A stretch of DNA of 64,000 nucleotides from Caulobacter sp. (GCF_017744445.1 NZ_JAGIBH010000016.1:1-64000), one strand, 5' to 3'; positions 38,181-43,635 are shown, counted from the stretch's first letter. The notes: a model not told the origin generated them from the sequence alone. Translations and numbers: made by a program.

Positions 38181-39023
38181 ATGCGCAAGCTGGGTCTGAT
38201 CGCCGGCGGCGGGTCGCTTCCCGTCGAACTGGCGGCCCATTGCGAGGCCGCCGGACGGGCGTTTTCCGTCATGCGCCTGCGCGGGTTCGCCGAACCGACC
38301 TTGGCCCGCTATGCCGGCGTCGAGGTTGGCATCGGCGAGTTCGGCAAGGCGTTCAAGGCGTTGAAAGCCGAGGGCTGCGAGGTCGTCTGCTTCGCCGGCA
38401 ATGTCAGCCGTCCTGATTTCGCCAAGCTGTTGCCTGACGCCCGGGGCGTGAAGGTGCTGCCCAGCCTGATCGTCGCCGCCCGCAAGGGGGACGACGCCCT
38501 GTTGCGCCGGGTGCTGGACGAGTTCGAGAAGGAAGGCTTCGAGATCGAGGGCGCCCACGAGGTGATGGGCGAGATGACCCTGCCGCGCGGCCGCCTGGGC
38601 AAGCACATGCCCAAGCCCGAGCAAATGGCCGACATCGACAAGGCCCTGCATGTGGCGCGCGAGATCGGCCGCCTGGACGTGGGGCAGGGCGCCGTGGTCT
38701 GCGACGGCCTGGTCCTGGCCGTCGAGGCCCAGGAAGGCACCGACGCCATGCTGCGCCGAGTGGAGCAGCTGCCAGGGGCCATCCGAGGCTCGGCCGAGCG
38801 TCCGCGCGGCGTGCTGGCCAAGGCGCCCAAGCCGATCCAGGAGACCAAGGTCGACCTGCCCACCATCGGCGTCGCCACCATCCAGCGCGCCGCCCGCGCG
38901 GGCCTGGCCGGCGTGGTCGGCGAGACCGGTCGCCTGCTGGTGGTCGACCGTGAGGCGGTGATCGCCTGCGCCGACGACCTTGGCCTCTTCGTGCTGGGGG
39001 TCGATCCGCAGGGGCGGCCCTGA
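38181..39023 (+). CDS. lpxI: UDP-2,3-diacylglucosamine hydrolase, LpxI type
   Basis: Removes UMP to give lipid X in lipid A synthesis. It has 280 residues and opens MRKLGLIAGGGSLPVELA. LpxI replaces LpxH in alphaproteobacteria, has no sequence similarity to it, and was first defined in Caulobacter crescentus. CDGLVLAVEAQEGTDAMLRR is in the catalytic C-terminal domain (DUF1009). I use the ATG at 38181; the track uses a GTG one codon earlier. Its stop overlaps the lpxB start (TGATG). Confidence 0.93.
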   Translation: MRKLGLIAGGGSLPVELAAHCEAAGRAFSVMRLRGFAEPTLARYAGVEVGIGEFGKAFKALKAEGCEVVCFAGNVSRPDFAKLLPDARGVKVLPSLIVAARKGDDALLRRVLDEFEKEGFEIEGAHEVMGEMTLPRGRLGKHMPKPEQMADIDKALHVAREIGRLDVGQGAVVCDGLVLAVEAQEGTDAMLRRVEQLPGAIRGSAERPRGVLAKAPKPIQETKVDLPTIGVATIQRAARAGLAGVVGETGRLLVVDREAVIACADDLGLFVLGVDPQGRP

Positions 39024-40189
39024 TGCTCAAAGTCATGTTGGTCGCCGCCGAGGCTTCGGGCGACGCGTTGGGCGCCAGCCTGGCCAAGGCGCTGCGGGCG
39101 CGGCTGGGCAAAGGCGTGACCTTCGTCGGCATTGGCGGGGCCAAGATGGCCGAGCAGGGGGTCGATAGCCCCTTCGATATCGCCCAATTATCGATCCTAG
39201 GCATCTGGGAGGGCCTGAAGGCCTATCCGACGGTCAAGGCCCGGCTGGACGACACCGTGGCCCTGGCGTCCCGCGAAAAGCCCGATGTAGCGATCCTGAT
39301 CGACAGCTGGGGCTTCAACATCCGCCTGGCCAAGGCGCTGCGGAAGCTCGATCCCAAGATGCCGCTGGTGAAGTACGTCGCGCCGCAGGTCTGGGCGTAT
39401 CGCGAAGGGCGCGCCCAGGGCCTGGCCAAGGCTGTCGACCTGCTGTTGTCGATCCAGCCGATGGACAAGCCGTATTTCGACGCCGCTGGGCTGAAAAACG
39501 TCTTCGTCGGCAACTCGGCCCTGGCCAAGCGCTTCGACCACGCTGACGGCGCGCGCCTGCGGGCCGCCGTGGGCGCCTCGGCGACCGACCAGGTCTTGCT
39601 GGTGCTGCCCGGCAGCCGCCCGTCCGAGATCGAGCGCGTCATGCCGGCCTTCGAGGACGCCGTGCGTCGGATCAAGGCCGACCGGCCCGACGTGGTCGTG
39701 GTGATCCCGGCCGCCTACACCGTGGTCGAGGCCGTGAAGGCTCGCGTGGCCGGATGGCCGTTCCGCGCCCATGTCATTGAGGACGAAGCGCTGAAGGACG
39801 ACGCCTTCGTCGCCGGCGACGTGGCCCTGGCCTGCAGTGGCACGGTCACCACCGAACTGGCCCTGGCCGGCGCGCCCATGGTCGTCGGCTACAAGACTGG
39901 CGCGATCACCTACGCCATCCTCAAGCGCCTGATGAAGCCAAAATGGGTGACGCTGTTCAACATCGCCGCCGGCAAGGCCGTGGCGCCGGAACTGCTGCAG
40001 GACGCCTGCGACGGCGAAGGGCTGGCGCGTGAGGTCGGCAAGCTGCTGGACGATCCTTCACTGAGGGCCCGCCAGGCGGCTGAGCAGAGCGCTGCATTGG
40101 ACAAGATGGGCCGAGGAATGCCCGACCCGTCGGAGGCCGCCGCCGACGCTCTGCTGAGCTTCCTGAAGGCTCACGGCCAAGGTGGTTAA
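39023..40189 (+). CDS. lpxB: lipid-A-disaccharide synthase
   Basis: Joins lipid X with UDP-diacylglucosamine to make the lipid A disaccharide. It has 388 residues, GT-B fold of family GT19. VAAEASGDALGASL is the N-terminal motif, YVAPQVWAYREGRAQGLAK and LVLPGSRPSEIERVMP are typical, and CSGTVTTELALAGAPMVVGYK is the donor-binding end. It closes the lpx block; its TAA stop overlaps a CtrA-like site. Confidence 0.95.
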   Translation: MLKVMLVAAEASGDALGASLAKALRARLGKGVTFVGIGGAKMAEQGVDSPFDIAQLSILGIWEGLKAYPTVKARLDDTVALASREKPDVAILIDSWGFNIRLAKALRKLDPKMPLVKYVAPQVWAYREGRAQGLAKAVDLLLSIQPMDKPYFDAAGLKNVFVGNSALAKRFDHADGARLRAAVGASATDQVLLVLPGSRPSEIERVMPAFEDAVRRIKADRPDVVVVIPAAYTVVEAVKARVAGWPFRAHVIEDEALKDDAFVAGDVALACSGTVTTELALAGAPMVVGYKTGAITYAILKRLMKPKWVTLFNIAAGKAVAPELLQDACDGEGLAREVGKLLDDPSLRARQAAEQSAALDKMGRGMPDPSEAAADALLSFLKAHGQGG

Positions 40190-40200
40190 CCGGAGCTTTA
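40186..40200 (+). promoter_or_regulatory. possible CtrA site before the FliK-like gene
   Basis: TTAA-CCGGAGC-TTTA differs by one base from the CtrA consensus TTAA-N7-TTAA and lies 48 bases before the GTG of a flagellar-type gene. In Caulobacter CtrA controls flagellar genes. One mismatch and overlap with the lpxB stop codon make this a tentative call. Confidence 0.4.
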
Positions 40201-40247
40201 CGCTCGACTCCTAGTTTCGGTGGAACTGCCGCTGTGGAGTCGTCGTC

Positions 40248-42035
40248 GTGGCCATCGACCCGACCACGCCCCTGACCCCGATCCTTCCAGCCCATCCGGC
40301 CGGAACCCCTCCGGATTCGGTCGCCGTCCTGCAGGCCATGGCCCGCCAGGCCCTGACGAACATGAGCGCCGAGCTGGGCCAGATCGTCGACCGTCCTGCC
40401 ACGCCTCAGACCCCCAAGGGCGGCACACCCGTCGAGCAGGTCGGCCAGACCTCCACCCAGGACGCGGGACACACCGCCGACGCCGCCAGCACGGCCAAGG
40501 GCGCGCCTCAGGCTCAGCAGCAGGCCCTGGCAGCCAAGCCGACACCAGAGACCCGCATGGCGCGCGCCGTGCGCACCGCCGCCGCCGAGGCCGTGCCGCG
40601 CCAGGTCGGGATCGCGCCGCTGATGGCCAATGTTCGCGCTGTCGTCGACCGCCCCGACATGCCGCCCGAGGTGCGCGAGGCGGGCAGGGCGTTGCTGGCC
40701 CAGACGCCCGAGGCGGCCGATCTGGCTACGCCCCAAGGTCTGCGCCAAGCGGTCGAACGCTCCGGCGTGTTCCTGGAAGCTCGCATGGCCCGCGCCGCCG
40801 CGACGCCACCGACGGCGGCCGGCGAGACCGCGCCCGCGCTCCCGCAGGCCAACGACATGAAGGCGGCGCTGCTGGTGTTCCGGGGCGCGCTGTCGGCCTG
40901 GCTGGCCCGCGCCGTTCCGCAGTCGGCTACTGAACCGCCGACAGAGCCTGCCGCCGAGTCGCGTTCGACCCCGACGGAGCCTGGCGAACCTACGGTCCGC
41001 GCCACGCCGCAGAGCGCCGGCGCCCAACCAGCTTTGGCTCAGACGACCCCGACACAGGCGGCCACACGTCCGTCGAGCCCAGCGCTAGCTCAAACGACTT
41101 CGGCCGAGGTCCCGAACGACGCTCCGGCCGTGACGACGCAGGCAACGTCCACGCCGTCGCCGACGATCGCACAGGCTGAAGAAGCCATTCCGGCGCCCAG
41201 GCCGAACATGCCAGCGCCACAGCCGCCCGAGGACGAGCAACTCGCCGCGCGGTTTGGGTCCTTCGTGGCCCCGCCCAAGGCTTCGCCGAATCCCGTCGCG
41301 ACCATGCGGCAGGCGCTGTCGCCGCTGATCCAGGCCGGCCTGCTGGCTGAGGAGACCGTCGCCGAGGAGCCGCTTCCGCTAGCCGAGGCCAAGACCGTCG
41401 TCGCGCGCGGTTACGGCGCTCCGGCCGCCGAGATCGCCCGCTCCAAGGTCCCGCCGCCGCCCTACGCTGGCGGACCGATGGCGGGCCAGAAACCGACGGC
41501 TCCCGCGCTGTCCCCGGGCCAACCGACCATCGACGTCGTGCGCGGCCTGCTGAAAGGCGCGAGCGGCGCTCTGGCGCGCCAGGACCTGATGCAGATCGCC
41601 TCGCTGCCAGAAGCCCAGCAGCACGATCCCGAAACCCTTGAGACCCGCCCGCAAGGCGCGCGTCTGAACCTAGACCTGCCGTTCGTCACACCTCAGGGCG
41701 TGGCCGTCGCCCAGTTCGAGATCAGCCACGACGGCGGCGGTTCCAGCGGCGGCGCGGCCGGTCCGGCCGAGCGCACCTACAAGGCCCGGTTCTCGATCGA
41801 TATCGAGCCGCTGGGACCGGTCCATGCCATGGTCACCCTGACGGGGTCTCGCACCCGCGTCTCGCTGTGGGCCGAGCGGGCTGAGACGATCGCGCGCCTG
41901 CGGGCCGGCGAGGAGAGCCTGGGCGCGGCCCTGCGCGAAGCCGAGCTAACCCCCGAGGTCGCCGTCCATTCCGGCGCGCCGCCATCGCCCGGCGGCGTCA
42001 GCCCGCTGGGCCATTTCGTGGACCAGGCCTCATGA
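40248..42035 (+). CDS. FliK-like hook-length-control-type protein
   Basis: A 595-residue protein with a long low-complexity N-terminal and middle part rich in Ala, Pro, Thr and Gln (residues 1-400). A compact C-terminal domain (about 470-580) resembles the FliK C-terminal fold: FSIDIEPLGPVHAMVTLTG, then RVSLWAERAETIARLRAGEE, and LGAALREAEL. In FliK such a domain contacts FlhB to switch export specificity. The next gene, overlapping by four bases, is a free-standing FlhB C-terminal domain, which supports the call. The GTG start has GGAG 8 bases upstream. It lies outside any flagellar cluster in this window, so it may be a second FliK or act in another secretion process. I leave the symbol empty. 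Confidence 0.65.
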   Translation: MAIDPTTPLTPILPAHPAGTPPDSVAVLQAMARQALTNMSAELGQIVDRPATPQTPKGGTPVEQVGQTSTQDAGHTADAASTAKGAPQAQQQALAAKPTPETRMARAVRTAAAEAVPRQVGIAPLMANVRAVVDRPDMPPEVREAGRALLAQTPEAADLATPQGLRQAVERSGVFLEARMARAAATPPTAAGETAPALPQANDMKAALLVFRGALSAWLARAVPQSATEPPTEPAAESRSTPTEPGEPTVRATPQSAGAQPALAQTTPTQAATRPSSPALAQTTSAEVPNDAPAVTTQATSTPSPTIAQAEEAIPAPRPNMPAPQPPEDEQLAARFGSFVAPPKASPNPVATMRQALSPLIQAGLLAEETVAEEPLPLAEAKTVVARGYGAPAAEIARSKVPPPPYAGGPMAGQKPTAPALSPGQPTIDVVRGLLKGASGALARQDLMQIASLPEAQQHDPETLETRPQGARLNLDLPFVTPQGVAVAQFEISHDGGGSSGGAAGPAERTYKARFSIDIEPLGPVHAMVTLTGSRTRVSLWAERAETIARLRAGEESLGAALREAELTPEVAVHSGAPPSPGGVSPLGHFVDQAS

Positions 42036-42295
42036 GCGGGATCAGCGGACCCTCGGCGCGGCCGCGCATCGCCGTGGCCTTGCTCTACGAAGAACCCAAC
42101 GCCCCCAAGGTCGTGGCCTCGGGCCAGGGTTGGGTGGGCGAGAAGATCATCGAGACGGCCCGCGAGCATGGCGTGCCGATCGAGGAAGACCCCGTGCTGG
42201 CCCAGGCCCTGTCGACCATCGAGATCGACGAGGAGATCCCCGAGGCCCTCTACCGCGCCGTCGCCGAGGTCCTCAGCTTCCTGCTCAAGCGCTAG
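42032..42295 (+). CDS. FlhB C-terminal-domain protein (FlhX-like export switch)
   Basis: An 87-residue protein matching only the cytoplasmic domain of FlhB/EscU/YscU: RIAVALLYEEPNAPKVVASG, then VPIEEDPVLAQALSTIEIDEEIP and LYRAVAEVLSFLLK. No membrane helices are present, and the autocleavage motif NPTH is absent. Short FlhB paralogues (FlhX or YlqH) sit next to FliK-like genes in several bacteria, which fits here. The start overlaps the FliK-like stop (ATGA). Function as an export switch is inferred. Confidence 0.8.
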   Translation: MSGISGPSARPRIAVALLYEEPNAPKVVASGQGWVGEKIIETAREHGVPIEEDPVLAQALSTIEIDEEIPEALYRAVAEVLSFLLKR

Positions 42296-42299
42296 AACG

Positions 42300-42324
42300 A
42301 AAAAGGCCCCGCCGAAGCGGGGCC
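42300..42324 (-). terminator. intrinsic terminator of gltA
   Basis: GGCCCCGC-CGAA-GCGGGGCC hairpin. On the minus strand it is followed by TTTTT, so it ends gltA transcription; in the plus direction it lacks a T run but may still slow polymerase after the FlhX-like gene. Confidence 0.88.
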
Positions 42325-42351
42325 TGATCCGTATCTCCGAGGAGAAAACGC

Positions 42352-43635
<1,284 letters not shown>

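Follow-up and report, generated by a model that had tools for sequence, protein, structure and literature searches.

The ruler protein FliK acts through its C-terminal domain on the autocleaved C-terminal domain of FlhB (FlhB-CC), and once FlhB-CC is removed, flagellar export switches from hook to filament. A relative of FlhB-CC encoded on its own, the FlhX protein HP1575 of Helicobacter pylori, reportedly acts as a 'spare part' when FlhB-CC is deleted, as the title of work by Wand from 2006 has it. In Bacillus subtilis the adjacent genes ylqG and ylqH presumably code for a FliK-like and an FlhB-C-like protein, which we take as a lead only. Here we describe the gene pair fliK2-flhX, located between lpxB (39023-40189) and the convergent gltA (42352-43635) in a 64,000-nucleotide stretch of Caulobacter sp. 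DNA (NZ_JAGIBH010000016.1:1-64000; the window). The pair is probably a real accessory part of flagellum assembly. By sequence, it is best regarded as an accessory paralogue of FliK and the FlhB C-domain that coexists with the canonical pair.

A 2026 study argues that FliK promotes the physical removal of cleaved FlhB-CC, which carries a pocket for early substrates (residues A286, P287, A341, and L344) and helps to hold the early export mode; Salmonella furthermore requires a second lock, Fluke (Flk), against premature switching (PMC13344023). In Caulobacter crescentus the C-terminal pentapeptide of FliK is required both for recognition and degradation by Lon and for what FliK-C does when overexpressed; no further gene had been annotated as fliK in this species (PMC8545394). 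FlhX and FliK are known families, and flhX-fliK has been named for Nitratiruptor, where the two families likewise occur together outside the main flagellar cluster (PMC9321776). This source names the pair in passing, and no passage was found in it that presents its fliK as a second, distinct FliK or the pair as general. In the literature searched, with subscription papers largely outside the search, no description of the pair as a general, coupled second switch module was found, and as such a coupled second switch pair the module appears undescribed.

The two proteins of the unit

An earlier note on this DNA had predicted a two-gene unit between lpxB and gltA coding for a Pro/Ala-rich FliK-type protein and an 87-residue FlhB C-terminal protein. 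The open reading frames (ORFs) were found as claimed; they overlap by ATGA, and in profile searches both proteins matched the respective families above the Pfam cut-offs. FlhX matches PF01312 (FlhB family) at positions 261-334 only (E 2.4e-21, 76.7 bits against a cut-off of 24.4), and with its 87 aa it has no N-terminal transmembrane domain. The NPTH autocleavage site is absent from all 37 aligned FlhX sequences, the window protein reading ARPRIAVAL where FlhB has NPTHYAVAL; the strand after NPTH is kept, with A14 and A16 invariant. The FlhB C-terminal domain is already separate, as had been proposed. The AlphaFold model of FlhX (predicted local distance difference test, pLDDT, 82) found its best structural match in Salmonella FlhB-CC (3b0z_B, probability 1.00), and Aquifex FlhB-CC was also matched. 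The best family was NCBIfam TIGR00789 'flhB_rel' with 91.4 bits, below the curated cut-off of 117.35; SctU models matched as well, weakly.

FlhX shares with FlhB-CC (PDB 3b0z/3b1s) the fold and the residues of the early-substrate pocket, which it retains (Table 1), but it lacks the CN strand, NPTH, and the membrane anchor, shows a one-residue deletion before the EIPEALYRAVAEVL helix, and belongs to a separate clade. In the tree, calculated from few alignment columns and with a modest number of FlhB sequences, FlhX forms a single clade against 14 FlhB C-domains with a support of 98/94. Because of this clade apart from FlhB, FlhX would be an old paralogue, not a piece of the local FlhB that was split off recently. 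In the C-domain of Caulobacter FlhB (L001, L090-L093) an EIPxEHFEAVAKVI-like sequence replaces the widespread EIPEALYRAVAEVL helix, whereas FlhX retains the widespread form. Like H. pylori FlhX (TIGR00789), the protein is a free-standing FlhB C-domain without membrane part beside a full FlhB. The work on HP1575, to judge from its title, concerns FlhX alone, whereas in the present case translation of FlhX is coupled to that of a second, dedicated FliK.

FliK2 matches the Pfam Flg_hook family at residues 505-579 (47.2 bits against a cut-off of 29.8), as do 39/39 of its relatives, and contains 13% Pro, 19% Ala, and no Cys. The top Foldseek matches of its C-domain were the PscP switch domain (5cuk) and Salmonella FliK-C (2rrl), the latter also found by hmmsearch with E 2.7e-6. 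Compared with canonical FliK (C. crescentus CC_0900; Salmonella FliK, PDB 2rrl), FliK2 shares the Flg_hook/T3S4 C-domain and a Pro/Ala-rich linker, but it has an N-terminal helical domain of its own and ends in VDQAS instead of an LDIRI-type sequence. The signature of the N-domain is conserved as far as Campylobacterota, being recognisable in Sulfurimonas, and was not found in canonical Caulobacteraceae FliKs. Canonical FliK C-termini are LDIRI-, VDLKV-, or LNVFV-like, whereas alphaproteobacterial FliK2 proteins end in VDQAS or LDRAS types; a large hydrophobic residue is present in the last three positions of 47/47 canonical FliKs versus 4/39 alphaproteobacterial FliK2 proteins. Campylobacterota FliK2 end in FEVKV and so retain a hydrophobic pentapeptide. 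On the tree FliK2 requires two label changes, and a single clade was not rejected (approximately unbiased test, p-AU 0.22). One full-length FlhB (contig C137) and one canonical FliK (contig C82) are encoded elsewhere in the same genome, a 5.34-Mb assembly in which the window lies on contig C77. Taken together, the partner of FlhX is a second FliK, distinct from the canonical one and coexisting with it, that has an N-domain of its own and an altered C-terminus.

Occurrence of the pair

A scan of genome contigs for FlhX yielded 80 loci, 70 with short FlhX ORFs and 10 with full-length FlhB containing NPTH. A FliK-family ORF lies directly upstream of flhX in all 68 loci with upstream DNA (in L046 it was assigned by PF02120), and in 54 of these the two genes share exactly 4 nt, just like the window pair. 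The FlhX loci span Pseudomonadota, Campylobacterota, Hydrogenedentota, Aquificota, Rhodothermota, Actinomycetota, and unclassified metagenome-assembled genomes (MAGs). No natural FliK2-FlhX fusion was present among the matches with long open frames, the 8/8 checked being stop-to-stop overlaps. At one locus from a Hyphomicrobiales MAG (L047:5985-6010) the FliK2/FlhX junction looks frameshifted at a C-run, probably by an assembly error, and this locus was left out of the interpretation.

In 149 Caulobacteraceae genomes the FlhX model separated FlhX (43 proteins, at least 109.8 bits) from FlhB (at most 84.7 bits) by a clean gap. Exactly two Flg_hook proteins are encoded in 42/43 FlhX-bearing genomes versus 0/106 FlhX-less ones, and outside Caulobacteraceae 26/29 FlhX genomes, belonging to several phyla, carry at least two. 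Because FlhX genomes carry two Flg_hook proteins, FliK2 is additional to canonical FliK. Presence and absence of the pair alternate within several genera of the family. In a Caulobacter without the pair (G091, L154) the site is empty and lpxB is directly followed by gltA; in another (G021, L158) gltA starts about 0.5 kb after lpxB with no FlhX between them. The patchiness within genera together with the clean absence at the lpxB-gltA junction in G091 shows that fliK2 and flhX are acquired or lost together. Purifying selection acts on both genes, with ratios of nonsynonymous to synonymous substitution rates (dN/dS) of 0.02-0.18 for flhX and, for fliK2, of 0.06-0.16 in the C-domain and 0.07-0.38 in the N-domain.

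The distance between lpxB and fliK2 exceeds 1 kb in some Caulobacter loci. One such gap (L004:2397-4070, minus strand) contains, judged by eye, a 557-aa hybrid histidine kinase gene divergent from fliK2.

Association with flagellar genes

It had been stated that the unit lies away from flagellar genes. This is correct for the window, in which fliK2-flhX is far from them, and for Caulobacter; across the family it is not. FliM/FliN-type and FliA-type genes precede the pair in Hydrogenedentota and Rhodothermota. Its neighbours in an actinomycete MAG are genes of the FlgL, FlgK, and FlgG types together with a sigma factor; in Paludibacterium it is located after fliC-flaG-fliD-fliS; and in two Gammaproteobacteria it is found near motA/motB, a ParA-type gene, or cheB. 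Injectisome genes were not found near the pair in the loci examined. Because of the flagellar genes beside it in other lineages, we regard the pair as flagellar, and the proposal that it might serve another secretion system was not borne out.

Co-occurrence points in the same direction, FlhX being always accompanied by FlhB or other export-gate genes in the genomes examined. Among 398 Pseudomonadota there was no strong FlhX match without a second FlhB-family match, and Caulobacteraceae without FlhB had no FlhX, with G071 as the sole exception. This FlhX-bearing genome, a 460-contig assembly, has no detectable FlhB, yet FlhA and canonical FliK are present. The genome is flagellar, FlhB being absent from the fragmented assembly or split in it, and a case of FlhX without a flagellar export gate was thereby ruled out.

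Two or three full-length FlhB/SctU proteins are encoded in nine Caulobacter genomes (G051, G057, G062, G072, G076, G081, G128, G132, and G143), which suggests an additional flagellar or type III secretion system (T3SS) export gate there.

The upstream region

A near-consensus CtrA site had been claimed in front of the unit. The box is present 62 nt before the start of fliK2 and is conserved: its left half TTAA is invariant in 18/18 aligned Caulobacter loci with diverged flanks, including loci in which lpxB is more than 1 kb away. The right half is degenerate (TTyA), being TTTA or TTCA but never TTAA in this alignment. In the nine Caulobacter loci of the window's clade the box stays at -60 to -63 despite changed flanks and even a changed neighbouring gene, and a second Caulobacter clade has TTAA-N7-TTCACG at the aligned position. 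The element is under selection; as a candidate CtrA site it would have a perfect left and an imperfect right half. Across the 5.3-Mb genome there are only 4 copies of GTTAA-N7-TTTAC. One of the four (L162:1501; C137:356333) is located about 140 nt upstream of what by eye resembles a chemoreceptor gene.

Table 1. Features of the fliK2-flhX region, with positions counted from the first nucleotide of the window.
Feature	Position	Strand	Basis or remark
Conserved promoter element TTAA-N7-TTTACG (CtrA-like; TTAA-N7-TTTA at 40186-40200)	40186..40202	+	alignment of relatives
Conserved -10-like CTAGTTT, about 18 nt after TTAACC	40211..40217	+	alignment (TAgNNT column block)
GGAG ribosome-binding site, 8 nt 5' of the fliK2 GTG	40236..40239	+	sequence; GGAG kept in alignment of relatives
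fliK2 (FliK-family protein, 595 aa)	40248..42035	+	GTG start; PF02120, E 2e-12
FliK2 N-terminal helical domain (residues 100-225; SGxFLEA...DLKAALL)	40545..40922	+	family-specific; no Pfam model; pLDDT mostly >90
FliK2 Pro/Ala/Thr-rich disordered linker (residues 226-404)	40923..41459	+	P 18%, A 21%, T 11%; pLDDT about 45
FliK2 C-terminal switch (T3S4/Flg_hook) domain with preceding ALARQxLxQxASLP helix	41526..41972	+	Foldseek, hmmsearch
FliK2 altered C-terminal pentapeptide VDQAS (canonical FliK of the same genome: LDIRI)	42018..42032	+	sequence comparison
ATGA stop/start overlap of fliK2 and flhX, 4 nt	42032..42035	+	sequence; overlap also conserved in relatives
flhX (free-standing FlhB C-terminal CC domain, 87 aa)	42032..42295	+	PF01312, 3b0z_B fold match, FlhX clade
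FlhX A24-P25, equivalent to FlhB A286/P287 (substrate pocket)	42101..42106	+	alignment: A 35/37, P 37/37
FlhX A78 and L81, equivalent to FlhB A341/L344 (substrate pocket)	42263..42274	+	alignment: A 37/37, L/I/F 37/37
AGGCCCCGC-CGAA-GCGGGGCCT putative hairpin in the gap that separates flhX from the convergent gltA	42304..42325	unassigned	seen in sequence

Discussion

We considered what function a second FliK and a free-standing FlhB C-domain could have beside the canonical proteins. What can be read from the sequences are the domain identities, the coupling, the co-occurrence, the flagellar association, the conservation of the pocket, and the distinct termini of FliK2. The reading that we prefer, and to which we give an even chance, is that fliK2-flhX is an accessory paralogous export-specificity switch with FlhX docking at the gate and FliK2 governing FlhX. 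FlhX is produced free-standing, without membrane part and NPTH, and its translation is coupled to that of a FliK-type partner of its own. It would dock at the export gate in place of FlhB-CC, offering the same early-substrate pocket with no need for autocleavage. FliK2 would bind FlhX and govern its delivery, retention, or removal, and in this way the two proteins may tune the timing or firmness of the hook-to-filament switch. Docking and the management by FliK2 are suggested by the reported 'spare part' role in the title of the H. pylori work and by the removal of the pocket-bearing FlhB-CC by FliK, as described in PMC13344023.

Several points weigh against this proposal. Binding of FliK2 to FlhX is suggested by co-translation and co-inheritance, not by contacts, and with its altered C-terminus FliK2 might lack a FliK-like action on FlhB or FlhX. 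The pair is dispensable, being absent from many flagellated Caulobacteraceae, and no published experiment on the FliK2-FlhX pair was found. More tentatively, the pair could be a cleavage-free second switch cartridge in several phyla, a never-tethered FlhB-CC that would be swapped in and out of the gate by its own FliK-type protein, setting or resetting hook-to-filament switching. The earlier note had spoken of a 'pre-cleaved switch module' for the flagellar gate. The separate CC domain, its coupling to a FliK, and its link to the flagellum agree with this; the word 'pre-cleaved' tells only half of the story, since FlhX never has the FlhB-CN strand or membrane anchor and would need something to dock onto.

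The main rival to docking at the gate is a soluble decoy: FlhX would bind the C-domains of FliK2 and perhaps of canonical FliK and block their early action on FlhB, the two proteins forming an inhibitor pair comparable to Fluke. FlhX has the FlhB-CC fold on which FliK-C acts, alphaproteobacterial FliK2 proteins, mostly without a large hydrophobic residue in the last three positions (one present in 4/39 versus 47/47 canonical FliKs), may bind without switching, and the need of Salmonella for Fluke as a second lock (PMC13344023) provides a precedent. A pure FliK decoy, however, would not need a substrate pocket, yet the pocket is nearly invariant. H. pylori HP1575 is moreover said, in a title, to support export and not to inhibit it, and on balance we consider a decoy rather unlikely. 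Docking and decoy predict different phenotypes and different binding partners. It is a good deal less probable that FliK2 and FlhX independently control the length or timing of some other early part of the same flagellum, such as the rod or the proximal hook; the distinct conserved N-domain of FliK2, situated where canonical FliK has its ruler and secretion part, would fit, but there is no evidence for a substrate.

A vestigial duplicate drifting to loss could account for the patchy occurrence in Caulobacteraceae (43/149) and the clean absence at the lpxB-gltA junction in G091. Purifying selection, the invariant pocket, the conserved promoter, and the finding of the same pair with the same overlap across phyla speak against it and leave it little probability. 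Least credible, and largely refuted, is a role in a non-flagellar T3SS: the weak match of FlhX to SctU models and the Caulobacter genomes with two or three full-length FlhB/SctU proteins might hint at it, but the pair has flagellar neighbours in five lineages, is present in genomes with a single FlhB, and is absent from the non-flagellated relatives sampled.

The change of the flagellar exporter from hook to filament is a long-standing question. In fliK2-flhX, where a natural free-standing FlhB-CC is co-translated with a FliK paralogue dedicated to it and has been retained in several phyla beside the canonical pair, there is material for a direct test of whether the CC domain is exchangeable. 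Relatives of the pair exist in tractable organisms, including Caulobacter vibrioides DSM 9893 (L008), and sister species without the pair at the same lpxB-gltA junction provide natural controls.

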